21,433 nucleotides of DNA from a virus (IMGVR_UViG_3300023276_000662:1-21433); one strand, 5' to 3'. Shown: positions 526 to 21,276, numbered from the stretch's first letter. A program made the numbers and translations. The notes: generated from the sequence alone by a model not told the origin.

Positions 526-535
526 TTAACCCCTC
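526..535 (+). repeat. TTAACCCCTC element, copy 1, just before a start codon
   Basis: The ten bases TTAACCCCTC end 5 nt before ATG 541. An identical copy ends 6 nt before ATG 1451. The sequence is not complementary to the usual end of 16S rRNA. It contains the TAAC motif seen before many other starts in this window. It may be part of the translation start signal or a binding site for a regulator shared by the two small genes. Confidence 0.45.
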
Positions 536-540
536 ATAAC

Positions 541-645
541 ATGACAACAAAATCACAAAGGAACGCCCATCTCTTTATTATTGCACTTGGGTTGTTCGTA
601 GTTGGAGTAACATTTACTGCTCCGTTCTTATCATTATTTCAATAA
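541..645 (+). CDS. Small membrane protein, 34 residues
   Basis: ATG 541 to TAA 643-645 encodes 34 residues: a polar, basic N-terminus (MTTKSQRNAH) followed by one continuous hydrophobic helix of about 22 residues (LFIIALGLFVVGVTFTAPFL). It would be a single-pass inner-membrane protein with the basic end probably in the cytoplasm. Support comes from the TTAACCCCTC element 5 nt upstream, a candidate promoter before that, and the following gene beginning 12 nt later. The short hydrophobic form fits a holin-like, pinholin-like or superinfection-related peptide, but nothing distinguishes these. It is short enough to be missed by most gene callers. Confidence 0.55.
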   Translation: MTTKSQRNAHLFIIALGLFVVGVTFTAPFLSLFQ

Positions 646-657
646 CAAAAAACAAAA

Positions 658-1428
658 ATGAAAATCGCAATGAATTACGTTAAGTATGGATTGCTTGTTA
701 TCTGTGGACTCATTATTGGCTCTGTCGTGCATTCTGTATTCGCAGATGATATAGAGTTACCAATAGCAGAGAACAATCACGAGGAGGCCGTAGGATTGCT
801 CACAGCGAGTGATAACAGAATGAATAAGCTTATAGAAAACATGGAAGCTGATATTCAGGAGATCAGAAATGATTATGCTCCATACATTCAAGACGAAGAA
901 AAGGTGAACAGTCACGCAAAAGAATTAGTTTGCAAAACCGAATCAACGTTAGCTACTGTAAAGTTACAAGCTGGAATTGACGAAGAGATTGAATTAACTC
1001 CAGAGGATTATAAAAGATTATCAGAAAAGAAACTGTGGAAATGTACTGAAGAAGTAGAAGAATCTACAGAAATAGACGAACTGCTTATTGAGGCTTGTTC
1101 TAAACACGCAAGTAATCAAGAAACTTGCCCTAAGATAATGAAGGGAGTTTTCCAAGCTGACTCTGCTCAATGTACTCAAGGAGTTGGTGCAACTAACTTA
1201 AACTGTGGGAATATACGCCCTGGATCTGGGAAGTATGGCGATCCAGATATTCAATGGACTGTTAATAACAACTTTAGGAAATATGAATCTTTAAGTGATG
1301 GAGTATTCGATAACGTAGCTTTGTATGCTCAACTATACGAAGGTCAATCCATAGACTATATGCGCAGGGTGTGGGCCAGAGGTGGTCAAGGATGGGCTGA
1401 TACAGTTAATCAATATGCTAACTCTTAA
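658..1428 (+). CDS. Secreted lysozyme/glucosaminidase-like protein with six cysteines
   Basis: The 256-residue product begins with a clear signal peptide: basic start, hydrophobic core at about residues 11-24, and a likely cut after A29 (VFA-DD). The mature N-terminal half (about 30-140) is acidic and helical. The C-terminal part (about 145-256) carries the segment NCGNIRPGSG (182-191), then a phenylalanine/tyrosine-rich stretch and a regularly spaced helix ending in WARGGQGWADTVNQY. This layout resembles phage peptidoglycan-cleaving domains of the lysozyme-like superfamily with an N-x-GNIR core. Six cysteines remain after signal removal, all suited to disulfides in the cell envelope. In glucosaminidase-type folds a Glu would be expected shortly before the NIR segment; here I see only QADSA, so catalysis is uncertain. 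TAAC lies 11 nt before ATG 658. It sits on the early-type strand, apart from the lysis genes at 2949-4351, so a role in superinfection exclusion or envelope modification is as possible as lysis. Confidence 0.7.
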   Translation: MKIAMNYVKYGLLVICGLIIGSVVHSVFADDIELPIAENNHEEAVGLLTASDNRMNKLIENMEADIQEIRNDYAPYIQDEEKVNSHAKELVCKTESTLATVKLQAGIDEEIELTPEDYKRLSEKKLWKCTEEVEESTEIDELLIEACSKHASNQETCPKIMKGVFQADSAQCTQGVGATNLNCGNIRPGSGKYGDPDIQWTVNNNFRKYESLSDGVFDNVALYAQLYEGQSIDYMRRVWARGGQGWADTVNQYANS

Positions 1429-1434
1429 AACATT

Positions 1435-1444
1435 TTAACCCCTC
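1435..1444 (+). repeat. TTAACCCCTC element, copy 2, just before a start codon
   Basis: Exact second copy of the ten-base element found at 526-535, again in a short intergenic gap and 6 nt before an ATG (1451). The flanking bases differ, so the match is not part of a longer duplication. Confidence 0.45.
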
Positions 1445-1450
1445 TCAAAA

Positions 1451-1630
1451 ATGTCTATCCCACGATTCAGAAAACACCATCCTGATGATGGTCCATGCTA
1501 CGATGATCACATACATAGTGGTCTTGATAGAAAAGTTATCCCTCGATATGCTGTGGATGCTATTGATCCATTAGCTGAAAGATTCCATAAGCAAGGGCAT
1601 ATAGATCCTCATAACATAAAGAAACGATGA
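1451..1630 (+). CDS. Small His/Asp-rich protein, 59 residues
   Basis: ATG 1451 to TGA 1628-1630 encodes 59 residues with seven histidines and eight aspartates, including HHPDDG (9-14), DDHIH (18-22), HKQGHIDPH (46-54) and a single Cys16. The spread of His and Asp could bind a metal, but I do not recognise a family. The case for a real gene is strong: the TTAACCCCTC element lies 6 nt upstream, and the stop overlaps the next start as ATGA (1627-1630), so it is probably translationally coupled to the RuvC-like resolvase. It may act with that nuclease or simply share its transcript. Confidence 0.65.
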   Translation: MSIPRFRKHHPDDGPCYDDHIHSGLDRKVIPRYAVDAIDPLAERFHKQGHIDPHNIKKR

Positions 1631-2064
1631 TCATACTTAGTATCGATTTAGGAAAAACCTGTGGAATATCTGTATGGTCTACTTCACAAGGTATTGAATA
1701 TACAGAAGAAGTAACTATAAAAAGTTTATTAGATCTTGATAAGAAGGTTAAATACTTGATTACCCGTTGGATACCCAATCTAATTCTTATCCCTTACCCT
1801 ACACGTTTCTATCGAGTTATCTTAAACCATTCTAAACTAATGGGAGTAGTAGAGCTTGAAGCAGAAAAGAAAGATACTCAAGTAATAGAAGTTCAAGATG
1901 GCACTTGTAAGAAGAATGTACTAGGTAATGGTAGAGCCAAGAAAGAAGATATAGCTGAATACTACAAAGATAAGTATCCAGAAATAGAATCAGAACACGT
2001 ACTCGACAGTATACTATTCACTCATTGGTACCTTTTGTCAACTGACCAGGGAGATATTTCTTGA
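1627..2064 (+). CDS. RuvC-like Holliday-junction resolvase (RNase H fold)
   Basis: The 145-residue protein opens with the RuvC strand motif ILSIDLGKTCGISVW, placing catalytic Asp at position 7. The middle contains HSKLMGVVELEAE (68-80), like the helix of RuvC that follows its second catalytic strand, and NGRAKKEDI (101-109), like the conserved basic loop and helix start. The end carries EHVLDSILFTHWYL, giving H124 and D127 spaced as in the RuvC form with His-x-x-Asp. The second catalytic Glu, expected on the strand at about 53-57, is not obvious, because that strand reads LILIPYP. Such enzymes resolve branched phage DNA before packaging or during recombination. Length is close to bacterial RuvC. 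ATG overlaps the previous stop by 4 nt. Confidence 0.82.
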   Translation: MIILSIDLGKTCGISVWSTSQGIEYTEEVTIKSLLDLDKKVKYLITRWIPNLILIPYPTRFYRVILNHSKLMGVVELEAEKKDTQVIEVQDGTCKKNVLGNGRAKKEDIAEYYKDKYPEIESEHVLDSILFTHWYLLSTDQGDIS

Positions 2065-2089
2065 CACTTTAATCGGCAAACGCTATCCT
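2061..2089 (+). promoter_or_regulatory. Candidate sigma70-type promoter for the HNH genes
   Basis: A perfect TTGACA (2061-2066) is followed after exactly 17 nt by TATCCT (2084-2089), a four-of-six match to the -10 box. The -35 box overlaps the end of the RuvC-like gene. Transcription would begin near 2096, only a few bases before ATG 2101, so the message would be nearly leaderless. This would let the two HNH genes be expressed independently of the upstream genes. No transcription data are available. Confidence 0.45.
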
Positions 2090-2100
2090 GTTTATAGATT

Positions 2101-2559
2101 ATGGCTAAAACACCCGAAGAAATAAAGGAATATAAGCGAAGATACTACCTTGCTAATAAGGAGAAGTTAAGCTTAAGGCATAAAAAGTATTATGACGAGA
2201 ACAAGGATAGGATTAAAAATCAAACCCTAGCCTATTATTATAAGACCAGGGTATTAAAAGGGAGAAGTGATCCGTGGAACAAGGGGATGACCATGTCTAA
2301 GGAGTATAGGCAGAAACTAAGCGATGCTCATGTTCTTAAAGACGAAAATAAATACAGAAATAGATTTGGGAAAAGAGAACACAGAAGGATAGTAGAAGAG
2401 CACATAGGCAGGGAATTAAGACGTGACGAGCTAATCCACCACATTAACGGCAAGCCAGGTGACAACAGGATAGAGAACCTATTCGTATGTGATATGAGCA
2501 CGCACAAGCTTATTCACTTCAGGGGAGCTTCGACTCGAGAAGAGTGTGAAGCTATATAA
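2101..2559 (+). CDS. HNH homing-type endonuclease with basic N-terminal repeats
   Basis: The 152-residue protein has two parts. Residues 10-50 hold tandem Tyr/Lys-rich units (YYLANKEKL, then KKYYDENKDRIKNQTLAYY at 28-46). Residues 59-75 (WNKGMTMSKEYRQKLSD) resemble the small DNA-binding NUMOD3-type motif of homing endonucleases. Residues 93-142 form the HNH nuclease: EHRRIVEEHIG, then HH at 113-114, N126 in the segment DNRIENL, and H135/H139 in the last helix. It would nick or cut DNA at a specific site. It has its own candidate promoter, and no intron is visible, so it is best read as a free-standing mobile endonuclease. Its N-terminal unit is shared with the HNH gene at 20353-20946. Confidence 0.85.
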   Translation: MAKTPEEIKEYKRRYYLANKEKLSLRHKKYYDENKDRIKNQTLAYYYKTRVLKGRSDPWNKGMTMSKEYRQKLSDAHVLKDENKYRNRFGKREHRRIVEEHIGRELRRDELIHHINGKPGDNRIENLFVCDMSTHKLIHFRGASTREECEAI

Positions 2560-2620
2560 TACTGGACTCTATACTATTTATCGATTCATATTTAAAAGAA
2601 ATAGAAGACGGAAATTATAT

Positions 2621-2884
2621 ATGAAGAAACATACTAAAATTTACTGCAAATTCTTTGGGATTGGTGAACAAGACTTTCCTATCTGTGAATGGTGTGGAAG
2701 AAGAGAGCTTATTGATGTTCACCATATCAACAATAGAGGTATGGGAGGCTCAAAAGATAAGGATTTTATAGAGAATTTAATTGGATTGTGCAGAGAGTGT
2801 CATAGTTCAGCTCACACACACAGAATATCCAAAGATGAACTCACACATAGGCACGAGTTAAAAATGATGTATAAGGCCTCCTAA
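2621..2884 (+). CDS. Small HNH endonuclease with zinc-binding CxxC pairs
   Basis: From ATG 2621 the product has 87 residues. It shows a classic zinc-supported HNH module: C22-x-x-C25 (CEWCGR), H34-H35 (IDVHHINNRG), a glycine-rich turn (GMGGSKDKD), N52 in ENLIGL, then C57-x-x-C60-H61 and H65. The two Cys pairs hold a structural zinc, and the His/Asn residues form the metal-dependent nuclease site. A longer frame from ATG 2546 would overlap the preceding gene by 14 nt and add 25 basic residues of low-complexity type. I prefer 2621 because it sits behind an AT-rich leader (ATTATATATG) like other starts here and avoids that overlap. It may be a packaging-associated or defence-type HNH. The stop codon lies inside the inverted repeat that follows. 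Confidence 0.82.
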   Translation: MKKHTKIYCKFFGIGEQDFPICEWCGRRELIDVHHINNRGMGGSKDKDFIENLIGLCRECHSSAHTHRISKDELTHRHELKMMYKAS

Positions 2885-2932
2885 AGCGCGTATTCCCTAG
2901 ACTATAAGTTGGCGGAATGGTTTAGGAGGCCT
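2874..2932. terminator. Inverted repeat at convergent gene ends, probable bidirectional terminator
   Basis: AGGCCTCCTAAA (2874-2885) and TTTAGGAGGCCT (2921-2932) form a perfect 12-bp stem around a 35-nt loop. Inside the loop ATTCC (2892-2896) can pair with GGAAT (2914-2918). It lies between the last plus-strand gene, whose stop codon is in the left arm, and the last minus-strand gene at 2949. A long T-run does not follow immediately on either side; the minus direction has a T5 about 10 nt beyond the stem, so the intrinsic terminator form is imperfect. No tRNA-like arms are seen. Confidence 0.55.
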
Positions 2933-2948
2933 ATTTAATAACGTCGTA

Positions 2949-3149
2949 TTATTTTTTAAGGCTAATTTTTCTAGCCACACTGTCTGCTACTCCAACTCCT
3001 GTAGCTAATCCTACTAGTTGAGTTAAATGTATAATCTCTTCGCCACCTATAAGACCTTTAGCCTCTAGGTAACTTAGTAAGATGTACGCAGCTAATCCCC
3101 AGAACTTCTTTGATAATAGGACTGGTAGATTTTCTTTTAAGAATTTCAT
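2949..3149 (-). CDS. Holin-like small membrane protein
   Basis: The 66-residue product has a basic N-terminus, a hydrophobic helix at about residues 16-30 (KFWGLAAYILLSYL), a short polar turn (EAKGLIGGEE), a second weakly hydrophobic glycine-rich helix (about 41-57, LTQLVGLATGVGVADS) and a basic tail (RKISLKK). This two-helix arrangement and its place 10 nt after the M23 endolysin, as last gene of the late operon, fit a holin that releases or activates the endolysin. No sequence signature proves this; it could be another small phage membrane protein. Confidence 0.55.
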   Translation of the reverse strand: MKFLKENLPVLLSKKFWGLAAYILLSYLEAKGLIGGEEIIHLTQLVGLATGVGVADSVARKISLKK

Positions 3150-3159
3150 ATTTGTAAAT

Positions 3160-3684
3160 TTATAAAGTAAATTTCTTGTGCGTTCCTTTCCAATTTAGTA
3201 CATATTCAAGGAAGTCTATATATCCAAAGAACCCATTGCTATAATCCATTACCTCCCATGAGAAGATATCTTTATCACTATCTTTTAATAATCTATATCC
3301 TCCATGAAAGTGTGGAGCTGTTGAGAAGCCCGTATTTCCCGAATAACCCATTAAGTCTCCAGAATGTACGTGACTACCATTAGGTTGTATTATGTCGCTC
3401 ATGTGGCCTCCTACGAACTCTGAAGCCTTATAAGGATTCCTAATCTTAAAATGTAAACCATATCCGTCTTTACCAGAATCCTTTACTTTTACTTGACCAT
3501 CCATCGGTGCGAATATAGGAGTACCCACTGGGATACCCCAATCGATACCATTGTGACCAGTCATACCCATAGCTTCGTACCAGTGTCGAGTATCTTTTTC
3601 ATTGAATATCTGTGAAACTTTCGGGCGAATCTGAATCCAGTTAAGGACAAATGCTGCCTTGTTTTGAATAGGACAAATAAGCAT
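3160..3684 (-). CDS. M23 family metallopeptidase, probable endolysin
   Basis: The 174-residue protein is a single LytM/M23 peptidase domain, which cuts peptide cross-links of peptidoglycan. All zinc and catalytic residues are visible: H44 and D48 (GHNGIDWG), H94 in GGHMSDI, and H125-x-H127 (APHFHGG). The lead-in strand GTPIFAPMDGQVKV and the GDLMGYSGNTGFST loop are typical of the family. No signal peptide is present, so export would need a holin, and a holin-like gene follows directly. The start lies 1 nt after the stop of the papain-like gene. It is the best endolysin candidate here. Confidence 0.9.
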   Translation of the reverse strand: MLICPIQNKAAFVLNWIQIRPKVSQIFNEKDTRHWYEAMGMTGHNGIDWGIPVGTPIFAPMDGQVKVKDSGKDGYGLHFKIRNPYKASEFVGGHMSDIIQPNGSHVHSGDLMGYSGNTGFSTAPHFHGGYRLLKDSDKDIFSWEVMDYSNGFFGYIDFLEYVLNWKGTHKKFTL

Positions 3685-3685
3685 A

Positions 3686-4351
3686 CTAAACTGTTATTTG
3701 ATAAGCTTCTAAAATCAAAGGAAAATGCTTTGTATCGTTTTTCCTTTTGAATTTAAACCATCCATTATCGGTGCCAGCTGCTTTCACTCCATGTGAATTA
3801 GCAACCCATATAACGTCTATATTATGTTTGTCTCCACATATACCTGCCATTGCATGATGTACTACTCTTTCGTAATTACTCAATACTCCGTCATCTCCTA
3901 CTGTACTTAACTTTTGAGATTCCCACATACAATCTAAGATCAAGGGTTCACCTCCTATTATCTTTGAATATGGATTTCTACCGAATAGGTAGCGATTCCT
4001 ATAACTATAAAACAACCTGCCAGACTTAATCTTGTAGTATTCTTTATTCTTCTTACAGTACATTCCTTCGCTTTTAAGAAGGTCTATAACAAAGCTCATC
4101 TTCTCATAATCTCCTCTAGGGTGAACAACCTTAAGTCTTTTGTAGAACTTATAGTAATCTAGGTCTAGCTTCTTGCCGTATTTTTCAAAGTATTTTAGCT
4201 CGAAGACGTGTTTAGTAGCAGCAGATTGACATGATCCACCTTTCTGTTTGAAGATCTCGTTGACTAATTCCTTCTTTCGTTTATACATAATCGAGTGATT
4301 AAAAGCTAAATGTTTTCTTTTTCTTACTAGATGCTTGTTCTGGCCTTGCAT
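3686..4351 (-). CDS. Papain-like (C1 fold) cysteine protease
   Basis: The 221-residue protein carries the papain triad in the right order and spacing: C41 in GGSCQSAATKH (like GSCWAFS), H166 in VVHHAMAG, and N185 in WVANSHG (like VKNSWG), followed by an aromatic WFKFKRK strand. Q36, five residues before the Cys, is a candidate oxyanion-hole residue. The middle segment GDYEKMSFVIDLLKSEGMY matches the family's helix before the substrate loop. There is no signal peptide or obvious propeptide. From ATG 4351 the gene overlaps the end of the giant gene by 53 nt; ATG 4288 (residue 22) would remove the overlap and keep the full domain, so the start is open. Its place between the giant virion-type protein and the M23 endolysin suggests cleavage of virion proteins, host proteins or peptide bridges at lysis. 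Papain-like proteases are uncommon in phage lysis regions. Confidence 0.75.
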   Translation of the reverse strand: MQGQNKHLVRKRKHLAFNHSIMYKRKKELVNEIFKQKGGSCQSAATKHVFELKYFEKYGKKLDLDYYKFYKRLKVVHPRGDYEKMSFVIDLLKSEGMYCKKNKEYYKIKSGRLFYSYRNRYLFGRNPYSKIIGGEPLILDCMWESQKLSTVGDDGVLSNYERVVHHAMAGICGDKHNIDVIWVANSHGVKAAGTDNGWFKFKRKNDTKHFPLILEAYQITV

Positions 4352-7300
4352 ATTTATAATATCTCAAAAGCGTTTCTGTAGGGATTCCCGTAACGGGTTC
4401 TTGTAATAAAGACATTATGCTCAACCAATCGCTTGCATCTTTTTCTTTCTTTTTTGCCTTGGTCCACGCTTTAGAAACATCATCAAACAATGGATAGCTA
4501 AATAAACCCTCTCCATAGTAATAATCTTTTCCTGTAAGTTTTTTTCTAATTTCAGCATAAGCATTTTCAGCTGCAGCGTCGAGCAATGGTAACGCCTGAA
4601 AAGGCTGGACAAGAATGTTCTGTAGGATATCACCAGCAACAGTGCTTTCTTCTTCTTCAACTTCTGCACCAGTTATCATTTGCCAAAGTTCTTTCACTGC
4701 AATCCCAGCTAGTACATACATAATAGGAGTATAGATTGAATATAAAACAGTATCAGCAGCAAACTCTTTTGGAGTTATTTGTTTATTTAAGGCCTGAATA
4801 GTAGAGTCAGTTTGTAACCTTAATAACTGATTTGTTGTATTTTTAAATCTAAAAAACACTCTATGAAAAAATCCCTTTGCACGTTGTGGTGATGACAAAT
4901 TGGCTGAAGATCCAGACTGCTGGGTCTTTTCTGTAAACTTTTCTAATTCTTCTGATGCCTTTTTTATATCACCATGTTTAGACATTTCATCTTTTATAAT
5001 AGGGTAGCCATTTATCATTATCGCTGTTACATCACCACTTCTAGTTAGAAGTGTTAGATATTTAGTCAAGCTCCCCATCCCCACTTTTAACTTATCCGCT
5101 CCTCTTATAACTTCTTGTAACGCCTCTGAATAACCTTGTTTAAAACGAGACCTGATATATGGAACGTTGTTCCACATATAGTCAAAGGTTCCCTTAGGAT
5201 TCTTTATAAAATCCTTGTTGTATTTTAAATAATTTTTTATACCAACTTTCCTAGTAGAATAGACACTAGATATAAGCTGTCTAACAAAAACAGTTGGGGA
5301 TCCAATCTTAGCTTTTACCCAATTATTCAAAGCCTTGTTCATAACACCAGAAAACACATCAAGCCTTTGAGTTCTATAATTAAGGGAAAAAGTATCTATA
5401 TGCTCCATCAAAGTATAATAAACTTCGATTCCATATTTTTCTTTTATTTTTCTTTCAACAGCTTCATTGGTAAAAAGGTTTTGCAACTCTTCATATTTTC
5501 TACTAACAGTCTTTACGTGTTCCGCCTCTGCAATATGTTTCTGTAACTTTAACCAAGCATTATCTGGAACTGGTTTTACGCTAGAGCTTTTAGCCCTTTC
5601 CTTCATTGCGCTAGGAGTTTCCCCCTGGATCCTTATGTCGTCATAAAAATCAGCTTTATACTTAGAAGTGGATGGCCAATAATTTTCAACAACACCCAAA
5701 TCTCTTCCAGTTATTTCAACACTTCTTTGGTTTAAAACATCCCTATACCCCTGTGCTTCCTCCATTAACGTATCAGCTAGTTTAGCGTCTTCAATAGATA
5801 GATTCTGCAACAACGCTGTCACCTGCTCTTCTCCAAAAGTATTGTAATATCTATCTTTAATTAGATCATTCTTAATAGCATTATATATATCCATTAAAGA
5901 AAGCTTGTTTATTTCTATAGTCCCTATGCTATCAGTTATCTTATAATCTGGTGAAGCAAGGTCGTTTATTAACTTCTTGTTTAACTCCCAATCACTTTTT
6001 AAATTATAAATCTGCTTTGTTTTAGCAACTATCTTTTCAACTTTTTCTCCAAAATCATTTTGCGTTTTAGTTTGAAGCCTTCCATAATCATACTGATCTG
6101 CTATCTTTTTCCCAGCTATCGCATTTAAAGCTGAATACAAATTAGAAATTGAACTAACGTATGCAGTTTTTAGCTGCTTTAGAACAGGCAAACTAGGTTT
6201 TTGAAGCTCCATGTTCTCTAATAACTCATCAACCTTTTGTCTTTTTTCAATTTTCTTAATCAAGTCATCAACATTCTTAGTCATCTTTCCAGACATTTTT
6301 ATAGTCTTTATGTCATCTAAAACCTTTTCAACTAAAGCCAGCGACGACTTAGCTCCATTCGCCTTAAGTGACAACATTCTTATTTTCATTTTATCGAACT
6401 CTGATAAATTTTCTGTAGGAGAAAGCTTTAAAACTTCTTGCGCCTTTTCTTTAGAAAATCTATTTATATCTCTCAGCTTTTCTATAACCTTATTGCTCTC
6501 ATAATCATATTTAGCAACTCTTTTCTGCCCTTTCTTTATAGGCTTAGTATATTTAAGCTCTCTTTTTATTTGCTTTTCCAGTCTCTTTTTTTCAGCAAAC
6601 TCCTGAAGTTCCCCAACTTTGTCTACTGCTCTTTTATAGTCCTTACCAGTTTTAGCATTTTTAATAGTAGCTAATAGTTTTCCCCGTTCTCTTAGCGGAA
6701 TATCTTTAGCAGACTTAATAATTTCTGACTTTATCTTTTGAGCCGCTTTTTGCTTATCAGTTATATTCCTTATGGTTTGCATACGATCTATTCTCTTTTT
6801 AAGCTTACTAGCTTTTACAGAGGTCATTCTCCTTTCAGAACGCAAGGCTGCAACTTGTCTCCTAGTGGGGATCTCTTCTATAAAGTTTATAGCTTCAGCT
6901 TCGTCTATGCCTAAAACTTCCGTAACCCTCTCAATAGTAGTATTTGCGAAATCACGCATCGCCTTTGCTTCAGCTATTTCTTTTTCTATCTTAGCAACCT
7001 TTTTTTCTGAATATCCTTTTCCAATTGGAGATTCTGGAATCTTTCTTAGCGTTTCAATATCACCAGTAGTTTTTTCTAAGATTCTATTTAACTTTCTAAT
7101 AACATTTAAATCTTCTCTATCAAATTGTTTTAACCCTTCGTCTACAGCCTCTATCTCTCCACTAAGCTCTTCTATTTTCCTTGTACTCTCTTCGTATTCT
7201 CTCGATGTTTTTAAATCCATATCTTCTATTACCGCTACCTTCTCTATTCCTGGTCTTTGACTTGCGTCTCCTTCTGGTCCACGCATGAAAGCCATTACAG

Positions 7301-9896
7301 GCGATTTAAGGACTTTATCAGTAAGCTTCGGTGTCATCTCTACCTTGTTCCATGTAACTCCTTGTTCATCAGTAATCTGTTTAATACCGTATTCTTTGTT
7401 AAGATATTTAGCCACGTCTTTTTCATAGAATTTGTAGATAGGATTGGAAGTGTCCACTTTTCCTGATATGTCGAAGGTTTCAGCAAAATTATTTATGTCC
7501 TCTAGTAACTCTTGTTCATTTTTCCCTGTCCTGCCTTTTGTCATTTGCCAAGTCTCAAACTGTTCATCATATTTCTTTTTAAATTCAGCTTTAAACCTTC
7601 CATTGTCTAAAACTTCCGTAATTACCCACTCATCTCCTATGTTACCATCTCTCCTGATTATCTGTCCTGGCGCATATTTAGCCCCTTCGTACTCACCCAT
7701 GTCCATTAGCTCTTTTAATGGAAAGCCTGTTATTTTCCCTGAATCATGCACCACCGACCAAGTAGTTGTATCCCCCAACCCCTCAATCTTCATAGCTGTT
7801 TCACCTGTAGGGAATAGGACTGTCTGCTTTCCATCTTGAGCCGCTCCCTTTATTTCTTCTCTTATTATTCTTTCATACCAGATGTTTCGGTAGGGTTGGA
7901 GTTGCTGTTCAGCCTTCACATCGTTACTACCAGACCTCAAGCCCTTCCCTTCAAAAAGCGATTCTATATTAACTCTATCAGGATCAGCATTAAATTTTGT
8001 AAGGATAGCCTGTGCCTCATTTTCAAATATGAAAAAATCTTTTTTTTCTAATTTTTCTATCTCCCTTATAGCTTCTGCATTTTTACTAAACTGCTCTCCT
8101 TCCAATCGCCCCTTCTGAAACAAGTCGCTTTGTAGTTCTATTATTCTACGGGTATCTCCTGGTACGTCTTCTATTCTGGTGTGGGCGAAGTAATTTTCAA
8201 TATCTTGTCCAAAATGAATCTGCCCTGCACTTGTTTGAATAGGACTACCATAAACAGTTTCATAATAATTTTCTATTTCACCTCTTGTTTCGTCAGGCAA
8301 TGTTATGTTCTCGTACCTATCAAAATTATATTCACCCCTATTGGTCTGAACCTTTGACAACACTTCTTCCAACGGCAATAACGCCGTCCTAACTTTGTTC
8401 TCAAACTCTGTTACGTTTATTTTGCCTCCTTCATATTCATCTAAAAATCCACGAATCATATCTCTTTCAACCTGTTTAACCTGAGGCTGATTAGTCAAAT
8501 CTTGTATGAATTGTTTTGATACAGTATCTCTTCCTTTCAAGTCTTCTAAAATCTTAGTAGTAGGAACTGTGTCGGGTAACGGAGCTGGCACGTCTATTCC
8601 AGGTCTAGCTCCTTTAGGTTTCAATCCACCGTAATAAACAAACCTGCTTTCTCCAGGACTCCAACCTAACGCCTCATTTGCTAGGTCATAAGACTTACTA
8701 TTAGACTTAGCTTTAAGAAGCTGAGTCATCTTTTCCGTATGAGCCTCTTTAGGAAACCAGTCTTTAATAGTTTGTTTCGCCCATTTTACAAACTCTGTTT
8801 TCTTTCCAGTGATAATATCTTTAACCCCCGTTCCTTTCACCCTAACCACTGGCTCTCCATTTATTATCTCTCCTTTAATCTTTTCTCCTTTCTTTAAATC
8901 CATAGCTAACTCGTTGATAGCTTGGAATGCTTTTGAAGGCGTAGCAGGCTTTTCTCCTTTAGCTATAGATTCGTGTAATCTCATTCCCTCTTCAATAAGA
9001 GGTCTTAGTTTAACTAGTTTTTCTCCTGTCCAAATTTCACCAGCTTTAGCTGTACCAGTTTTTAAATGTTTAGCTATTCTTCCTGTTATGAATATACCAA
9101 CTAGGTCTTGCCCTAAATCCCATACTTCATTATTTAGTCGCAAGTCTTGTTTGTAATCTTTTGTTAAATTATCCAGCAGTTCATCGTTCTCCATCTCACC
9201 ATAAAGCTCTTTATGCTTTTTAACATCTTCTACATACTGTCTACCTAATGCTTCTCTATGAAAATCTTTCATATTACCAGTCAGCCACCCAGCTACTTCC
9301 CATATCTTTTCAAATCCCTTCTCTGGTTCTGGTAAACCAAAAGCTTCAAAAGGAGTATCAACTCCAGTTAATGCTGTTGAAAATGGTAAAGCTGAAGCTC
9401 CTAATAACGTTTTTCCAAGAACTATAGAAGTAGAAGCGAGTCTTGTTTTATCGTCTTTTATTTGACTAGCCTTGTAATAATCTTCTCCTAGCTGTTGAGT
9501 ATGCTCTATAGTATCGGCTATTCCTCCCCATGCTTTTCTACTAGCCGTTTCCCAATACCATGGAAATGAACCTTCCTCGTTATGAGTAGGGAGTTCTTCC
9601 ATGTTTCTACTGAAGTCTACAATACTACTAGCTATGTTATTAGCCTTATCTACGTAGATTTTCTTAGCATTGTTTATAAAATTATTAACAGTGTCTTGAG
9701 TGGGAGAAGGCAAAACACTACCAACACCTTTTGTGGCACTTATCAAAGCTTCTCTCTCTGCGCTTCTAGCTGTATCATTTTTAATAGCCTGATTTACAAA
9801 CGGAAGCATTGTATCCTTCATCAAGGAAGACTCCTCTTCTTTCTTAGCTTTAAAAGACTCTCCTTTGTTTATTAAATAATCTGTTAGGTAACTCAT
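4299..9896 (-). CDS. Giant polyvalent-type phage protein, 1865 residues
   Basis: Architecture by residue: 1-130 polar and helical; about 150-215 hydrophobic and glycine/proline-rich (LGASALPFSTALTGV, then EAFGLPEPEKGFEKI); 270-400 basic; about 560-855 a compact domain with RRIIELQSDLFQKGR, WYERIIREEIKGAAQDGK, FPTGETAMKIEGLG and FYEKDVAKYL. That pattern, an arginine/Gln-Ser core with a conserved helix and a strand ending in TGE, resembles the domains found in large polyvalent phage proteins. Residues 900-1230 are long Lys/Glu coiled coil. From 1250 to the end it is helical, with VVENYWPSTSKY near 1406 and a hydrophobic, possibly membrane-inserting segment near 1712-1745 (YTPIMYVLAGIAVKELWQM). 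Polyvalent proteins are thought to be packaged and delivered into the host with the DNA. The start overlaps the previous stop as ATGA. No single catalytic activity can be assigned. Confidence 0.75.
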   Translation of the reverse strand: MSYLTDYLINKGESFKAKKEEESSLMKDTMLPFVNQAIKNDTARSAEREALISATKGVGSVLPSPTQDTVNNFINNAKKIYVDKANNIASSIVDFSRNMEELPTHNEEGSFPWYWETASRKAWGGIADTIEHTQQLGEDYYKASQIKDDKTRLASTSIVLGKTLLGASALPFSTALTGVDTPFEAFGLPEPEKGFEKIWEVAGWLTGNMKDFHREALGRQYVEDVKKHKELYGEMENDELLDNLTKDYKQDLRLNNEVWDLGQDLVGIFITGRIAKHLKTGTAKAGEIWTGEKLVKLRPLIEEGMRLHESIAKGEKPATPSKAFQAINELAMDLKKGEKIKGEIINGEPVVRVKGTGVKDIITGKKTEFVKWAKQTIKDWFPKEAHTEKMTQLLKAKSNSKSYDLANEALGWSPGESRFVYYGGLKPKGARPGIDVPAPLPDTVPTTKILEDLKGRDTVSKQFIQDLTNQPQVKQVERDMIRGFLDEYEGGKINVTEFENKVRTALLPLEEVLSKVQTNRGEYNFDRYENITLPDETRGEIENYYETVYGSPIQTSAGQIHFGQDIENYFAHTRIEDVPGDTRRIIELQSDLFQKGRLEGEQFSKNAEAIREIEKLEKKDFFIFENEAQAILTKFNADPDRVNIESLFEGKGLRSGSNDVKAEQQLQPYRNIWYERIIREEIKGAAQDGKQTVLFPTGETAMKIEGLGDTTTWSVVHDSGKITGFPLKELMDMGEYEGAKYAPGQIIRRDGNIGDEWVITEVLDNGRFKAEFKKKYDEQFETWQMTKGRTGKNEQELLEDINNFAETFDISGKVDTSNPIYKFYEKDVAKYLNKEYGIKQITDEQGVTWNKVEMTPKLTDKVLKSPVMAFMRGPEGDASQRPGIEKVAVIEDMDLKTSREYEESTRKIEELSGEIEAVDEGLKQFDREDLNVIRKLNRILEKTTGDIETLRKIPESPIGKGYSEKKVAKIEKEIAEAKAMRDFANTTIERVTEVLGIDEAEAINFIEEIPTRRQVAALRSERRMTSVKASKLKKRIDRMQTIRNITDKQKAAQKIKSEIIKSAKDIPLRERGKLLATIKNAKTGKDYKRAVDKVGELQEFAEKKRLEKQIKRELKYTKPIKKGQKRVAKYDYESNKVIEKLRDINRFSKEKAQEVLKLSPTENLSEFDKMKIRMLSLKANGAKSSLALVEKVLDDIKTIKMSGKMTKNVDDLIKKIEKRQKVDELLENMELQKPSLPVLKQLKTAYVSSISNLYSALNAIAGKKIADQYDYGRLQTKTQNDFGEKVEKIVAKTKQIYNLKSDWELNKKLINDLASPDYKITDSIGTIEINKLSLMDIYNAIKNDLIKDRYYNTFGEEQVTALLQNLSIEDAKLADTLMEEAQGYRDVLNQRSVEITGRDLGVVENYWPSTSKYKADFYDDIRIQGETPSAMKERAKSSSVKPVPDNAWLKLQKHIAEAEHVKTVSRKYEELQNLFTNEAVERKIKEKYGIEVYYTLMEHIDTFSLNYRTQRLDVFSGVMNKALNNWVKAKIGSPTVFVRQLISSVYSTRKVGIKNYLKYNKDFIKNPKGTFDYMWNNVPYIRSRFKQGYSEALQEVIRGADKLKVGMGSLTKYLTLLTRSGDVTAIMINGYPIIKDEMSKHGDIKKASEELEKFTEKTQQSGSSANLSSPQRAKGFFHRVFFRFKNTTNQLLRLQTDSTIQALNKQITPKEFAADTVLYSIYTPIMYVLAGIAVKELWQMITGAEVEEEESTVAGDILQNILVQPFQALPLLDAAAENAYAEIRKKLTGKDYYYGEGLFSYPLFDDVSKAWTKAKKKEKDASDWLSIMSLLQEPVTGIPTETLLRYYKYARPEQASSKKKKTFSF

Positions 9897-12886: not shown

Positions 12887-12909
12887 ATATTATTAGTTAA
12901 TTATCTTGT

Positions 12910-14784: not shown

Positions 14785-14793
14785 ATATTTATG

Positions 14794-16374
14794 TTAAGTA
14801 GTTTTTTGAGTATTGACTCGATCTCTCTTAATAAGAGTAGGCAGAATTTCGTAATCAATACCAATGAAATCTATTTTAAAAGGTTCTTCTGCATTACTAT
14901 TCTCTAGGGTTATCTGTATCTCAGCTCCTTCTCTAATATCTCTATCAAAGTCTAATGGTGCATAGAATCTTTTAAACCTAGTTTCTGATGGAGCATCTCC
15001 ACCTAGCCAAGCATCACCCTTCCAATTATCTCCTATGTAATTAGAGTATGAATTTCTAATTAAAAAAGTATTATCAATCTCATACTTCTTCTTAGTTCCG
15101 TCTACGTCTACTGTTATATAAAACCTAGTAGCTGAATCCATAGATCCAATAATATCTATTCTCTTGAATCTCTTGTATTGGATACTCGTTCCGAACGTGA
15201 ATACCTTAGAAACCCATTTCCTTGTATATCCATCTCCATCATAAGAATAGCTCTCATCATTGAACTTATAAATCTTTTGACTAAAGTGATCTCCAAAATA
15301 CAGTTGCTCTTCATAATCCTCATCTCTAGCAGTAGTTAATCCACCAGGATAGAATCCAGTTCTTAATGTCCATATCTTCCATGTTTCATCGTATACGAAT
15401 GTTCTTGATGGAAATTGATCTGTTCCATAAGGAACTGATAACCAATACTGTTGATTCTTTTCGAAGTGAGCTGATCTAGCTACGTTCCTATACTTCTTAT
15501 TAGTAAATCTTAAACTTGGTTCAATATCTTTACTTAAACTTAATGGTCTAGGTAATCCAACCTCGTCTATTCCTTGCTCTGATCCTAATCTCATAACACC
15601 TCTCTCACTCCAATAATAAGAATCTGATCCAACCTTTTGTACTGATAAAGGAGCTAGGCATCCATAAGGACGTTCATATGGCTCTTTAAGAGGCGTAGAG
15701 AGATTAAATGAGTCATCATAGGTAAACACAACTCCTTGGTTAAAAGTCCGTGTAATGACCGTTATACGCTCCCCGTTTACTGATAGACCTGTGATTATAT
15801 CATTAAACTTGATTGTTCCTATCCAGCTATCTTCGTCCTCTATATCTGAATAATGTAATATATTCCCAACAGCTATAAACAATCTCCCCATAAAGGGAAC
15901 CATTATATAACCTTTTGGAGCTGTTCCACCTATTGGATTCATTGGATTTGTAATATCTACCTGTTGTGGAGTATTAACTCCCCCTGATGTTCCTACAATA
16001 GCTACTCTTTCAGCCGTGTTACCAAAATAAGTTGTTCCACCTATTTCACTAGCTGCATCCCCATAATCTCCTAAATCATTCCAGGCTACATTAGTTGGAT
16101 CAATGGAGTAGTGATGATCTCCAGCACTTATAAGTAAGTACCTCTCATCATCATCTTTATCATAATTGTAAAGATTCCTGATTCCATCCGCTCCAACTCC
16201 TTCTGAAAACAATTCATACCCAGAAGATGTGATAAGTGATCCTTCACGAGTAGCTTCCATATTCTCCATAACTGTAGCATCAGCTATTCCAGCATTATCT
16301 TTGTTTGGCTGAAGATAACGTGGATCTACGTTTGTAACTAATCCTTTAAAATTGTTGATATATAAGTATCCCAT
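14794..16374 (-). CDS. Tail nozzle / DNA-stabilisation-type protein (podovirus gp10-like candidate)
   Basis: The 526-residue protein opens with INNFKGLVTNVDPRYLQPN and then a region rich in Asn-Met-Glu-Ala and glycine turns (ATREGSLITSSGYELF), a beginning commonly seen in short-tail nozzle and P22 gp10-type proteins. The rest is almost entirely beta-strand, with repeats of a Tyr/Trp-ended blade such as YWSERGVMRLGSEQG and YDETWKIWTLRTGFY, which suggests a beta-propeller. A C-terminal beta domain runs from about 400. It follows the adaptor candidate with no gap (TAA 16375-16377, then ATG), as nozzle and adaptor genes often do in podoviruses. Sequence similarity was judged by eye only. Confidence 0.65.
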   Translation of the reverse strand: MGYLYINNFKGLVTNVDPRYLQPNKDNAGIADATVMENMEATREGSLITSSGYELFSEGVGADGIRNLYNYDKDDDERYLLISAGDHHYSIDPTNVAWNDLGDYGDAASEIGGTTYFGNTAERVAIVGTSGGVNTPQQVDITNPMNPIGGTAPKGYIMVPFMGRLFIAVGNILHYSDIEDEDSWIGTIKFNDIITGLSVNGERITVITRTFNQGVVFTYDDSFNLSTPLKEPYERPYGCLAPLSVQKVGSDSYYWSERGVMRLGSEQGIDEVGLPRPLSLSKDIEPSLRFTNKKYRNVARSAHFEKNQQYWLSVPYGTDQFPSRTFVYDETWKIWTLRTGFYPGGLTTARDEDYEEQLYFGDHFSQKIYKFNDESYSYDGDGYTRKWVSKVFTFGTSIQYKRFKRIDIIGSMDSATRFYITVDVDGTKKKYEIDNTFLIRNSYSNYIGDNWKGDAWLGGDAPSETRFKRFYAPLDFDRDIREGAEIQITLENSNAEEPFKIDFIGIDYEILPTLIKRDRVNTQKTT

Positions 16375-17064: not shown

Positions 17065-17068
17065 ATAA

Positions 17069-17365
17069 TTATAGTTTAGTTTTAATTTCTTCTAGAATTG
17101 TAAAGATTTGAGCTAACTGTGTTTCAATTCTTGCCTGAGTAATGTCTTGCTGTTGGTCTGAAGATTCAACAACCCCCATCCTAGCCTCGAGACCGTTGTA
17201 CCATTTAGTGCAATGTTCATACTGATTCTCCGCTGTAGCAAGGTGTGTATAGATTTCAGCCCTCTCATCCATTACCCACACAGTCATTGAAATTATAAAG
17301 ATAGCAACAGTTGCTATAGTCCCAACCTGGATTTTAAGAGCGTGCTTCTTTAGAGTTTCAGACAT
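17069..17365 (-). CDS. Small membrane-anchored coiled-coil protein
   Basis: The 98-residue product has a short basic cytosolic-type start, one transmembrane helix at about 14-31 (VGTIATVAIFIISMTVWV) and then a long helix with heptad-like spacing (about 32-98) containing C52 and a Gln/Ile-rich end. The layout resembles inner-membrane spanins and other membrane-coil phage proteins, but spanins need a partner lipoprotein and none is visible next to it. It is wedged between a LamG adhesin (2 nt) and the adaptor candidate (4 nt), so a role in virion assembly or at the membrane during entry is also possible. Confidence 0.55.
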   Translation of the reverse strand: MSETLKKHALKIQVGTIATVAIFIISMTVWVMDERAEIYTHLATAENQYEHCTKWYNGLEARMGVVESSDQQQDITQARIETQLAQIFTILEEIKTKL

Positions 17366-17367
17366 AG

Positions 17368-19065
17368 TTATTGTATGTAAGGAATAAATTTAAAGTTTCT
17401 TAACTTATCAGATGTAGTCATGTAGGTTGAAACCATCTTACATTCTGTGTGTACTGAGTTAGTAACTGGATTAGAGCCAGTAACACTAGCATCTATCAAA
17501 GTATAATTCTTTCCATCATCTGTTGAATAATACATAGTGAACTTATTGCTCCTATCTCTAGTTATCTTAATCTTATACCAAGTATTGTTGCTTAAATAAC
17601 CAGTAGAACTCTCAGATAAAATACTAGCTGAACCATTAGTTGAGAGAATTAAACGAACAGACTCTACTGATGTTAATGTAAAATAATATCCATTCTGTCC
17701 TGCTGTTGCATAATCTCCAGGAATCTCCGCTATAAATCCTACACGGCTAGAATTCCCCTCAGCTCCTTTATAGAAATCAAACTCCCATGTTCCATATGCC
17801 TGATAACTTGGTAATACTAATGCCATTGGCCCAGCATTACATGTAAAGTCTTTGTTGAAACCATCATATGCATTTACGTCGATATTTCCAAGTTCTCTAT
17901 ACCATCCAGTATTAGTCACGTATCCATCAGCAGCTATTGGGGCTATGGTCTCGTTCCATCCTTTACCATCTGCTATATAAGCTTCAGTATATTTTGGCGT
18001 ACCGTCTAATTCACATTCGAATATCTCTAGCTCATCCCATTCTGCGTAACCAGCACTGGTTGCGCTAGAAGACCAAGCAGCTTTTGTGTTGTCAGCAGTC
18101 CAGATTATGTCAAAGTATGTCCAGTCTGTGATTGTTCCAAAGTTAGTTTTAATGGCTGCTCCAGCTCCAGTATAAATCTTAGGGTCAAACACTCCGTCTC
18201 CTTTTGCATATCCTCTAAGTCTATATGTTTTTCCAACCTGGAACACAGCTTGCATTGCTCCAGGACTATTAGAACCGTTATAAGCAACTCTTAGTGCCTG
18301 TCCTGCAACTCCACCAGTTACCTTTGTAATAGTCGCACTGTTTCTAGCCTCCCATCTACCTACTCCAGCCTCTTCGCAATCTCCGTCAGGTAAGAAGTTT
18401 CTATAATTACCATTACTCTTGTAGTCTACTATGTTGTAAGGTTTACTTGTTAATTCTTCTTCGGCAATCTTTGCAATATCTTCATCTGAAATAGCCGTAT
18501 TGTAAACAGTTATAACTTGGATATTCCCTTTCCAAGCATCACTACCAGCACTTTTTGAGCCAAGATATATCTTTGCATCTGTTAATGACAAAGCTGAATA
18601 AGCTCCTGAATTAGACAAAGAACCATTGATATAAATATATCTATTAGTTCCATCATACTTGAAAGTTAGATGGTAAATCTTACCGTTTTCCAATGCATCA
18701 GTAGTGGCTAAATTTCCACCCCAGTTATCCAATAAAACAGTGCCATCATCATTAACAGTCCCAGAAAAGAAAGCATTAGCAGACGTATTTCCTAGTCTGA
18801 AAATTCTTTTATTGTTTCCGTTACCATTATTCTTATTTACAATCAAAGCTGTAACAGTCATTGATTGATTCCCAGTAAGCCCTACATTTGCATTAGATGC
18901 AGAAAGAGAACTAGAACCATTACAGAAAAGACTACGAGCAGGTGACTTCTCAAAATAAGAATCAGTTACACTCGTAATATCATTTGTACTAGTTTGGTCT
19001 GCAAGTGAACCCTTACGAAAATCATAAGAGATTACTTCGTTTGCCTTGTATTTATCTCTTATCAT
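17368..19065 (-). CDS. LamG/concanavalin-like adhesin, 565 residues
   Basis: Three beta-sandwich domains can be seen. Residues 1-210 form a LamG-type domain, with the closing pattern YHLTFKYDGTNRYIYINGSL, YLGSK, and the typical ISDEDIAKIAEEEL helix. Residues 220-360 look like a carbohydrate-binding domain (FLPDGDCEEAGVGRWEA start, KTYRLRGYAKGD, ending AEWDELEIFE). Residues 380-565 form another concanavalin-like domain (TWYKIKITRDRSNKFTMYYS, then LRNFKFIPYIQ). Such domains bind sugars on host surfaces. The ATG overlaps the stop of the upstream LamG gene by 4 nt, so they are coupled. It is likely a tail fibre or decoration protein. Confidence 0.72.
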   Translation of the reverse strand: MIRDKYKANEVISYDFRKGSLADQTSTNDITSVTDSYFEKSPARSLFCNGSSSLSASNANVGLTGNQSMTVTALIVNKNNGNGNNKRIFRLGNTSANAFFSGTVNDDGTVLLDNWGGNLATTDALENGKIYHLTFKYDGTNRYIYINGSLSNSGAYSALSLTDAKIYLGSKSAGSDAWKGNIQVITVYNTAISDEDIAKIAEEELTSKPYNIVDYKSNGNYRNFLPDGDCEEAGVGRWEARNSATITKVTGGVAGQALRVAYNGSNSPGAMQAVFQVGKTYRLRGYAKGDGVFDPKIYTGAGAAIKTNFGTITDWTYFDIIWTADNTKAAWSSSATSAGYAEWDELEIFECELDGTPKYTEAYIADGKGWNETIAPIAADGYVTNTGWYRELGNIDVNAYDGFNKDFTCNAGPMALVLPSYQAYGTWEFDFYKGAEGNSSRVGFIAEIPGDYATAGQNGYYFTLTSVESVRLILSTNGSASILSESSTGYLSNNTWYKIKITRDRSNKFTMYYSTDDGKNYTLIDASVTGSNPVTNSVHTECKMVSTYMTTSDKLRNFKFIPYIQ

Positions 19066-20363
19066 ATGTTTAAGTTAGCGAATGCTTTATTTGATAATTC
19101 CTTTATCTGTGTAGGAGTGAGTGCTTGTTTAACTGCGAACGGAAACTTCATTGCCCCATCTAAAGGAGTCGATGTATAATTAGTAGCACGAATCCCCACC
19201 GCTGTACTTGTGGCATTATGGGTAAGCCCTCCGTGCCAACTCGCCAATCCATATGGCTGCTCTACTCCATTAAAGTATATCTTGAACCCAGTCGATGCTT
19301 CGGAACCATCATAAACACCCACTACGTGCGCCCATTGCCCTACTTGTGGGAATGTATTTGAAAACCTGTAGTTGTGGTAAGCCCCACCACCATCATTAAG
19401 CTCAAGCCCTATCCCATTTCCAGCAAGAACAGTTAATAACCAGTTGTTGTCACTTTCCATTATGCACTGTGTCCCCAGCGAATCAAGGCGCATAAGCCCT
19501 CCCACTGAAATTGTTTCAGTAGTAGCGGCAACTATTACAGGGGCTGGCTTCTTTAAGTAAACAGCTCCTGAAGTAAAATCTACCCCGTTATGCTCTAGTA
19601 AATCTGGCTCTGCGCTTCCTGCGCCATCTCCCCAATAAACATTCCCAGCAGTCCCGATATTCTCTGTCACCTCATCAGAACCATCGTCAAAATGACTTCT
19701 GGCATTAAGGAACATCTCCATCTTTCCTGCATCCATACTTGTAAATGTGTCGTTCTCATAAACATCTACAGCCTCTTCTTCTGTTATTGCCCTGTTACGA
19801 ATAGTCAAATCCTTCATTGTAAATGCACCGTAAGCAGCATTTGCTCTTCCTATTTCAAAAGGTCCAGTATTAGTGATGTCGGCATTGACAAAGGTTGTTA
19901 CCAAGCCGACTGAAGCTGCTCCATCTACATAGAACCGTAAAGTATCACTCCAGTCTCCTGAGATAGTAATGTCATATTCGGTATTCGCCGCAGAGATAAC
20001 CCCTGTAGCAGAAACACCAGAAATCTTAATCACTCCACCTACCAAACAAAACATAAATATCGATCCATTAACGTCCCTTCTTATATACCACCTATTATTT
20101 GCGTCCCCCCATTTAGAGAAAATATAATTCTGTGTGTCTGCTGATGTAAAACTAACCTTGAAGTTAAAAGAAAAGTTGTCAGCACCTAGATTAGCTATGT
20201 CACCATAACTCACTAGCTGACTAGAACCGTTCATGGTTACCCCATTGCTGATAGTAGGTGAGCCTGTTGCAACTCCACCATTATCAGTAACATAATCATC
20301 GTTGATGAAGTTCTCTCTAAACACTACGTCCTCTGATGGTCTGGAAGCATATTTAAGCCCCAT
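19062..20363 (-). CDS. Tandem LamG-domain adhesin, 433 residues
   Basis: Two LamG/concanavalin-like domains lie end to end. The first spans about 12-200, with NFSFNFKVSFTSAD, YDITISGDWSDTLRFYVDG and the closing LTIRNRAITEEEAVDVYEN. The second spans about 205-430, with WAHVVGVYDGS, FKIYFNGVEQPYG and the closing ALTPTQIKELSNKAF. These are sugar-binding modules common in tail and surface proteins of phages. TAAC lies 10 nt before ATG 20363. Its start overlaps the end of the HNH endonuclease gene by 11 nt. It may share host-receptor duties with the next gene. Confidence 0.78.
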   Translation of the reverse strand: MGLKYASRPSEDVVFRENFINDDYVTDNGGVATGSPTISNGVTMNGSSQLVSYGDIANLGADNFSFNFKVSFTSADTQNYIFSKWGDANNRWYIRRDVNGSIFMFCLVGGVIKISGVSATGVISAANTEYDITISGDWSDTLRFYVDGAASVGLVTTFVNADITNTGPFEIGRANAAYGAFTMKDLTIRNRAITEEEAVDVYENDTFTSMDAGKMEMFLNARSHFDDGSDEVTENIGTAGNVYWGDGAGSAEPDLLEHNGVDFTSGAVYLKKPAPVIVAATTETISVGGLMRLDSLGTQCIMESDNNWLLTVLAGNGIGLELNDGGGAYHNYRFSNTFPQVGQWAHVVGVYDGSEASTGFKIYFNGVEQPYGLASWHGGLTHNATSTAVGIRATNYTSTPLDGAMKFPFAVKQALTPTQIKELSNKAFANLNI

Positions 20364-20946
20364 ATTGTAATTGGTTAAATGATACGAACCTACCCTTCTC
20401 GTCTCTTACCGCTTGCTTTACGTGCTCTATAGCGTGAATCCTCATATGTTCCGCTCTACTCATTACCTCGAGATTATCAATGTTGTTATTTGTAAAGTCT
20501 CCGTCTTTGTGGTGAACATCCTCAGAAGCCTCCAGGTCTCGTCCCAAGACTTTTCCCACAAGTTTTCTGTACAGAGAGTTCCTTCGCCCCTTGTAATCAT
20601 CACCAGCCCACCTTGGATTCTTTTCTCCTGTCATATTGTTTTGAGGGCGAGCCTTAATCATCTCTTTGAACTCAGGTGTTCCCTGTTCCAGTACTCCGCT
20701 AGCATGCCTACGCTCTTGTAGCTTCTGCTTGTGTTCATCTGTACGCCATTTAGCAGTTATCTGCTCCCTATTCTCATTGTAATAAGCAGAAGTCTGTGCC
20801 TTAATTTTATCTTTATTCGCCTGGTAGTACTTCTTGTCATTCAAAGATTTGCACTCTTTACACCAAAGCCCTTTCACACCAAAGCTAGGAGCTTCTTTAG
20901 CCTCCTTACAGATAGAACAAGTTTTGGTCTCTACTCCTTTTAACAT
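20353..20946 (-). CDS. Zinc-finger HNH homing-type endonuclease
   Basis: The 197-residue protein starts with a zinc-binding pair set, C10-x-x-C13 (CSIC) and C29-x-x-C32 (WCKEC). Then comes a basic repeat, KKYYQANKDKIKAQTSAYY (38-56), nearly identical in pattern to one in the HNH gene at 2101-2559. The nuclease domain has HH at 145-146, N157, H167 and H171 (AEHMRIH). It is inserted between virion genes and stops 11 nt inside the next gene, which suggests it moved in as a free-standing mobile endonuclease that exploits coupled translation. TAAC lies 12 nt before ATG 20946. Confidence 0.88.
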   Translation of the reverse strand: MLKGVETKTCSICKEAKEAPSFGVKGLWCKECKSLNDKKYYQANKDKIKAQTSAYYNENREQITAKWRTDEHKQKLQERRHASGVLEQGTPEFKEMIKARPQNNMTGEKNPRWAGDDYKGRRNSLYRKLVGKVLGRDLEASEDVHHKDGDFTNNNIDNLEVMSRAEHMRIHAIEHVKQAVRDEKGRFVSFNQLQYGA

Positions 20947-20969
20947 AATTATTATTTAGTTACTTCTAC

Positions 20970-21263
20970 TTATTCAACTACTTCAGGAGCAGTAAGTTCT
21001 GCTATCTTAGCTAGCCTAGCCATGTCAATCTCTTTGATTTGACCGTAAGAGAATCCTTTAGCAGAAACTTGCTTCTCTCCATCCATTTCTACTCTCCTAA
21101 CTGTCTTACGTATTTCTTTGTAAGACTTACCTGCAACCAAGCCTGCAAGTATAGCTTCTTTCTCTTCCAGTGTAGGTTCTAATAGATTTAACTCCTTAGC
21201 TGGAGCCACTACAACTAGGTCTTCTAGCTCCTTGCCTTCAAAGACAGTGTCTAAATTTTCCAT
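20970..21263 (-). CDS. Unknown 97-residue phage protein
   Basis: The first 25 residues are acidic with a hydrophobic strand (LEDLVVVAPAKEL); residues 30-60 form a helix with KSYKEIRKTVRR; the end holds KGFSYGQIKEIDMARLAKI, a helix of regular Leu/Ile spacing. It could be a small virion or assembly protein, but I do not recognise its family. It is the first complete gene of the late strand inside the window, with TAAC 8 nt before ATG 21263, and an unknown gene ends 13 nt upstream. Confidence 0.65.
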   Translation of the reverse strand: MENLDTVFEGKELEDLVVVAPAKELNLLEPTLEEKEAILAGLVAGKSYKEIRKTVRRVEMDGEKQVSAKGFSYGQIKEIDMARLAKIAELTAPEVVE

Positions 21264-21276
21264 GTGTTTTTGTTAA

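Follow-up and report, generated by a model that had tools for sequence, protein, structure and literature searches.

It is still an open question how bacteria that do without a Shine-Dalgarno (SD) sequence choose their start codons; the SD-less signals described so far are diffuse stretches rich in A. In the A-rich region of the Bacteroidota, described in Flavobacterium johnsoniae (Baez et al. 2019, PMC6847099), the A-rich determinant occupies the same position as the motif treated here, and domain 4 of bS1 is thought to lie nearby. A further study describes "SD-scarce" organisms with or without CCUCC, among them Candidatus Peribacter riflensis; like us, its authors found low SD use in a Peregrinibacteria genome, but they reported the absence of SD sequences and did not mention TAAC (PMC10783764). 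Here we analyzed IMGVR_UViG_3300023276_000662:1-21433, an IMG/VR record whose entire 21,433 bp (the window) are a fragment of a tailed phage, and in which the tetramer TAAC recurs shortly upstream of start codons. Our results indicate that this phage family likely initiates translation with an SD-independent signal, (T)TAAC, and that its host, which may be one of the tiny, uncultured Peregrinibacteria-like bacteria, very probably does the same.

The significance of the motif was examined by counting TAAC at a spacing of 8-12 nt, the spacing being the number of nucleotides between the end of TAAC and the ATG. Such a TAAC precedes 11 of the 19 credible ATG starts in the window but only 14 of the 714 remaining ATGs of the two strands (2.0%; P = 1e-14). 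Further, in an unsupervised count of tetramers at positions -4 to -14 of starts relative to internal Met codons, TAAC ranked first of all tetramers both in the window (9/17 starts, 0.31 expected, P 5e-12) and in L007 (3300023210), an overlapping contig that supplies the early region, including a primase-helicase-like protein (16/25 starts, 0.31 expected, P 6e-25). Another contig, IMGVR_UViG_3300023112_000655, overlaps the window end near-identically (6 differences in 18,520 bp) and extends 10.3 kb past it, into the terminase, portal, and major capsid genes; all four of its held-out starts beyond the window (4832, 5683, 6171, and 7168) carry TTAAC at 9-11 nt. With the overlapping contigs included, TAAC was present at 8-12 nt in 28 of 48 curated phage starts, distributed over spacings of 8 (six starts), 9 (eight), 10 (five), 11 (seven), and 12 nt (two), and no single spacing outside this range, up to 59 nt, held more than two. 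TAAA, by comparison, was found at only 10 of the 48. A raw count of TAAC-N4-10-ATG over the whole window showed no excess (24, with 23.9 expected by chance), because non-start ATGs dominate such a count and the signal is limited to real starts. A preliminary description of the window had suggested a genome-wide enrichment check, in which TAAC proved to be enriched across the phage and absent at internal ATGs. That the motif is real and functional at starts is, in our view, virtually certain.

When the starts were aligned on the motif, the base preceding TAAC was T in 66% of them and the spacer was nearly G-free, so that the earlier consensus retains its TAAC, but its A/T-rich spacer is better written as (T)TAAC followed by an almost G-free stretch. 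Given the spacing of 8-12 nt, the two adenines of TAAC fall at -10 to -15, and an A occupies position -3 in 67% of phage starts. SD motifs (GGAG, GAGG, or AGGA, 3-11 nt upstream) were present at 0-1 of 12-25 starts, with counts from 0/16 to 1/25, which is at or below the internal-Met background and agrees with the SD absence reported in the preliminary description.

The motif is kept by relatives of 64-79% protein identity. Terminase identity to the phage is 79% in L008 and L009, 73% in L010, 65% in L012, 59% in L013, and 55% in L014 and L015, and then drops to 24-32%; capsid identity is 64-65% in L247 and L248. TAAC precedes 6/8 starts in L008, 7/8 in L009, 4/7 in L012, and 9/17 in L247, and four L009 late genes retain it next to diverged spacers (TTAACATCTATACA/TTAACCATTTAAT; TTAACCAAAGTAAAAC/TTAACAAGCAAAT; TTAACGATTATAGACT/TTAACCCTTAAAAA; TTAACAATTTAAAAC/CTAACAATTATATA). 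The relatives at 55-59% terminase identity (L013-L015) are SD-less, with TAAA or AATA, and the distant ones at 24-32% use SD. The signal therefore tracks the phage clade, as would be expected if it tracked the host. Among named phages, the best terminase and capsid matches reached only ∼22-31% identity, with mixed hosts.

When named genomes were scanned for TTAAC upstream of EF-Tu, the results implicated Bacteroidota, as well as one Peregrinibacteria metagenome-assembled genome (MAG). We then counted TTAACH8N0-3ATG in >500 genomes, using the reversed pattern as a control and calling a genome enriched at ≥25 hits and a ratio ≥2. In the class of the Peregrinibacteria MAG SI075_bin40 (Patescibacteria), which probably corresponds to the Gracilibacteria of GTDB, 27 of 145 genomes were enriched, with ratios of 2.0-5.0; in the remaining Patescibacteria, the ratio rarely exceeded 2. 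At predicted starts, TAAC was the top tetramer in G159 (GC 36%; 13/54 vs 1.0, P 2e-11; SD at background) and in G249 (11/33 vs 0.1, P 1e-20; no SD), and the second in G317 (14/51 vs 1.4). Five pooled genomes showed TTAA at 83 of 223 starts (vs 12.8) and TAAC at 36 (vs 6.2), with SD at 2% against a background of 9%, and in other genomes of the class TTAA occupies the same position with A, T, or C as the next base, likewise with SD at or below background. The preliminary description proposed that the phage or its host uses TAAC rather than SD to signal initiation, and this draws support from (i) the phage-wide enrichment, (ii) the conservation in relatives, and (iii) the occurrence in a bacterial lineage. 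The genetic code is also consistent: the phage uses TGA as a stop and therefore the standard code, as expected of a standard-code host, and the TTAAC-rich genomes of the class contain no TGA within their bS1-like gene. Several TTAAC-poor genomes of the class do have TGA there, which fits the known recoding of TGA. The only readable 16S among these TGA-containing genomes, that of the TGA-recoded member G315 (L191), has lost its anti-SD (tail GATAGACCACCATCATAAAA), and this genome shows no TTAAC enrichment. One contig of a MAG from the candidate class (G334 contig 20; L224, L225) carries a distant terminase match and, unlike TTAAC genomes, has SD at 56% of its starts; it may be a misbinned phage.

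TAAC could instead act in transcription, either as the -10-like box of leaderless or short-leader mRNAs or as the promoter of a phage polymerase. The -10 box of a leaderless gene is expected at about the distance of TAAC from the start, and leaderless mRNAs share with the phage an A/T-rich element upstream of the start. Moreover, near-consensus sigma-70 promoters lie only 6-11 nt upstream of two TAAC-less starts, namely (i) TTGACA-17-TATCCT at 2061..2089 (+) of the window, 11 nt before the HNH start 2101, and (ii) TTGACT-16-TATACT at 4818-4791 (- strand) of L007, ending 6 nt before ATG 4784. From this arrangement, both mRNAs may be leaderless or short-leader, and that of L007 4784 is probably a leaderless early mRNA within an otherwise TAAC-using phage. 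TAAC itself, however, occurs on either strand and among early as well as late genes, and, unlike the -10 box of leaderless mRNAs, works inside operons and at overlapping genes without a -35 partner: none of 29 motifs has a TTGAC within the preceding 40 nt, the T at position 6 of a TANNNT hexamer is not conserved, the aligned motif has no further strongly conserved positions around it, and its spacing tolerates 5 nt. Of the 26 starts that overlap a co-directional gene upstream or follow it within 15 nt, 13 have TAAC, as do 13 of the 18 more distant starts, which leaves only a weak trend of the earlier remark that TAAC-less genes mostly overlap or abut their neighbors. The operon-internal and overlapping use, together with the missing -35 element, therefore marks a ribosome signal; we regard it as highly likely that TAAC is a translation signal rather than a promoter, and the transcriptional alternative as very improbable. 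A by-product of TAA stops followed by C, or plain chance, has a negligible probability: an upstream stop codon supplies the TAA in 4 of 29 cases, but the other 25 are not stops, and the tetramer enrichment, the P value of 1e-14 relative to other ATGs, and the conservation in relatives refute this reading. Another reading is a changed SD/anti-SD pair, in which an unsampled host would have an altered 16S 3' tail (GUUAA) that pairs with TTAAC. In its favor, TAAC sits where UAAG does in an extended SD, and CCUCC is reported to be missing in some Patescibacteria (PMC10783764). Like SD/anti-SD pairing, TAAC is a short motif at a bounded but tolerant distance upstream of AUG, and it is found at each operon gene. 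Unlike it, TAAC lacks complementarity to the 16S 3' tail in ten TTAAC-rich genomes, whose tails read GGA(T/A)(C/T)ACCTCCTTT or close variants. None of the ten contains GUUA, and seven keep CCUCC, so this is not an altered SD pairing; in addition, G315, which has lost its anti-SD, is not enriched for TTAAC. The comparison with the 16S 3' end proposed in the preliminary description weighs against base pairing, and we reject an altered anti-SD as highly improbable.

If, then, TAAC is read as a translation signal, its host might still belong to the Bacteroidota (for example, the Cytophagales), with TAAC being the phage's flavor of the A-rich initiation motif at -11 to -14 in that phylum. The phage and the candidate hosts share with F. 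johnsoniae (PMC6847099) (i) the absence of SD, usually with a retained anti-SD, (ii) a signal at -10 to -16, (iii) a preference for A at -3, seen in the 67% of phage starts noted above, and (iv) the proposed bS1 neighborhood. The relatives at 55-59% terminase identity use TAAA, as known Flavobacteria phages do, and starts near tuf show an excess of TAAC in Roseivirga/Cyclobacteriaceae (14/62 vs 1.1). However, the phage motif is not a run of A but a defined T-A-A-C whose C is specific and whose spacer is poor in G, and the candidate lineage lies in the Patescibacteria. Known Flavobacteria phages have TAAC at 0/56, 7/48, and 5/38 starts, being SD-less with TAAA or A-runs instead; none of 148 Bacteroidota genomes was enriched for TTAAC-ATG (ratio typically 0.4-1.2, and at most 1.8 with ≥25 hits); the Roseivirga genome away from tuf showed TAAC at 1/35 starts, which is background; and some early genes of the phage follow sigma-70 type promoters whose spacers are 16-17 nt long. 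A Bacteroidota host, first hinted at by the scan before tuf, was thus not borne out by the 148 genomes, and we consider it unlikely. The ratio outliers within the phylum (G098, G110, G149, and G091) proved to have SD or A/T-rich start motifs, not TAAC. L007 is depleted of TAHHTTTG, the -7 element of the Bacteroidota, but this cannot serve as a host test, because a known Polaribacter phage is not enriched for it either. Around tuf in Roseivirga/Cyclobacteriaceae (L057, L061, L063, L064, L075, L084, L092, and L105), TAAC is the top motif, possibly as a feature of highly expressed genes. Several observations also weigh against a Peregrinibacteria-like host and a signal common to phage and host: the gene starts used here are open reading frame (ORF) predictions throughout; neither 353 genomes of the candidate class nor the genome collection contained a close prophage or phage contig, and the latter yielded no terminase relatives; TAAC is found at ∼10-33% of predicted starts in the candidate hosts vs ∼60% in the phage; and tetranucleotide similarity does not discriminate between the host groups (0.62-0.64 for G159 and G284 vs 0.65 for Roseivirga). 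On balance, we lean modestly toward a host in the Peregrinibacteria-like lineage, and see a minor chance that it lies elsewhere, in neither this lineage nor the Bacteroidota.

For the favored reading, translation initiation by (T)TAAC, we propose the following mechanism. The (T)TAAC of the mRNA, 8-12 nt upstream of AUG and followed by a near G-free, A/U-rich spacer, would replace SD, and the 30S subunit would position the AUG via an SD-independent contact with mRNA at about -10 to -16. An unstructured, G-poor and A-rich leader with an A at -3 may help to keep the start open, and the host would be a standard-code, Peregrinibacteria-like member of the Patescibacteria. The contact would most plausibly be made by bS1, present in the candidate hosts, or by the 30S platform. 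A bS1-like protein was identified in 23 of 24 TTAAC-rich genomes tested, and in the fragmented MAG G159 the sole hit was weak, to a longer protein with an S1 domain. Weak bS21 matches were obtained in 38 of the 145 class members and did not clearly track the use of TTAAC. We tentatively suggest bS1 as a possible reader of the motif. Taken as a whole, the reading that a standard-code Peregrinibacteria-like lineage and its phages initiate via UUAAC, located at about -10 to -16 and recognized by a part of the ribosome that is not the 16S tail, with CCUCC mostly kept, has perhaps an even prospect.

SD-less initiation is already known, but the literature searched contained no case of a compact tetramer with bounded spacing that a phage clade has in common with a Patescibacteria lineage. 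Nor did it describe TTAAC as an initiation motif, or any motif replacing SD, although absence there is not proof. If the UUAAC reading is true, bacteria would have a second initiation code that is sequence-specific, and uncultured phages could be matched to hosts by it. Such a compact motif, spaced like an SD and common to a phage family and a bacterial lineage, would render the question of start-codon choice testable by mutating a single tetramer; moreover, it would improve gene calling in Patescibacteria and provide a sequence clue to the hosts of phages without cultured relatives.

The nine TAAC sites of the preliminary description were all recovered at their starts, and two more, before 1627 (+) and 3684 (-), are new. 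On the plus strand, TAAC lies at 527..530, 10 nt before ATG 541 of a 34-codon ORF with a hydrophobic segment; at 643..646, 11 nt before ATG 658; at 1436..1439 (as TTAAC), 11 nt before ATG 1451; and at 1612..1615, within the upstream gene and 11 nt before ATG 1627 of the RuvC-like protein. On the minus strand, the sites at 3693..3696, 14793..14796 (TTAAC), 19074..19077, and 21272..21275 (TTAAC) are each 8 nt before an ATG, namely those of a metallo-endopeptidase-like protein (3684), a Gly-rich, tail fibre-like protein (14784), a lectin-domain protein (19065), and the gene starting at 21263. The TTAAC at 12896..12899 (-) precedes ATG 12886 of a 997-aa protein with an M23 domain by 9 nt, that at 20374..20377 (-) precedes ATG 20363 of a lectin-domain protein by 10 nt, and the TAAC at 20959..20962 (-) precedes ATG 20946 of an HNH endonuclease by 12 nt. 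The sites before 19065 and 20363 lie within the upstream gene, and those before 658 and 14784 borrow their TAA from the upstream stop codon, just as had been described.

The protein set of the window includes an SU10-type adaptor (Pfam SU10_adaptor), a head-closure-like protein, tail-fibre proteins, M23 peptidases, HNH endonucleases, and the RuvC-like protein; neither PHROGs nor Pfam gave a match for a 1865-aa protein at 4299-9896. Two converging gene sets have between them an inverted repeat (AGGCCTCCTAAA / TTTAGGAGGCCT) at ∼2868-2935, and contig 3300023112_000655 terminates within it; the repeat may act as a terminator in both directions or mark a break in the assembly. Genes for HNH-type endonucleases are dispersed over both gene sets (window 2101-2559, 2546-2884, and 20353-20946; L007 18678-19181 and 1959-2426), and the two that lack TAAC, at window 2101 and L007 18678, may be recent insertions.

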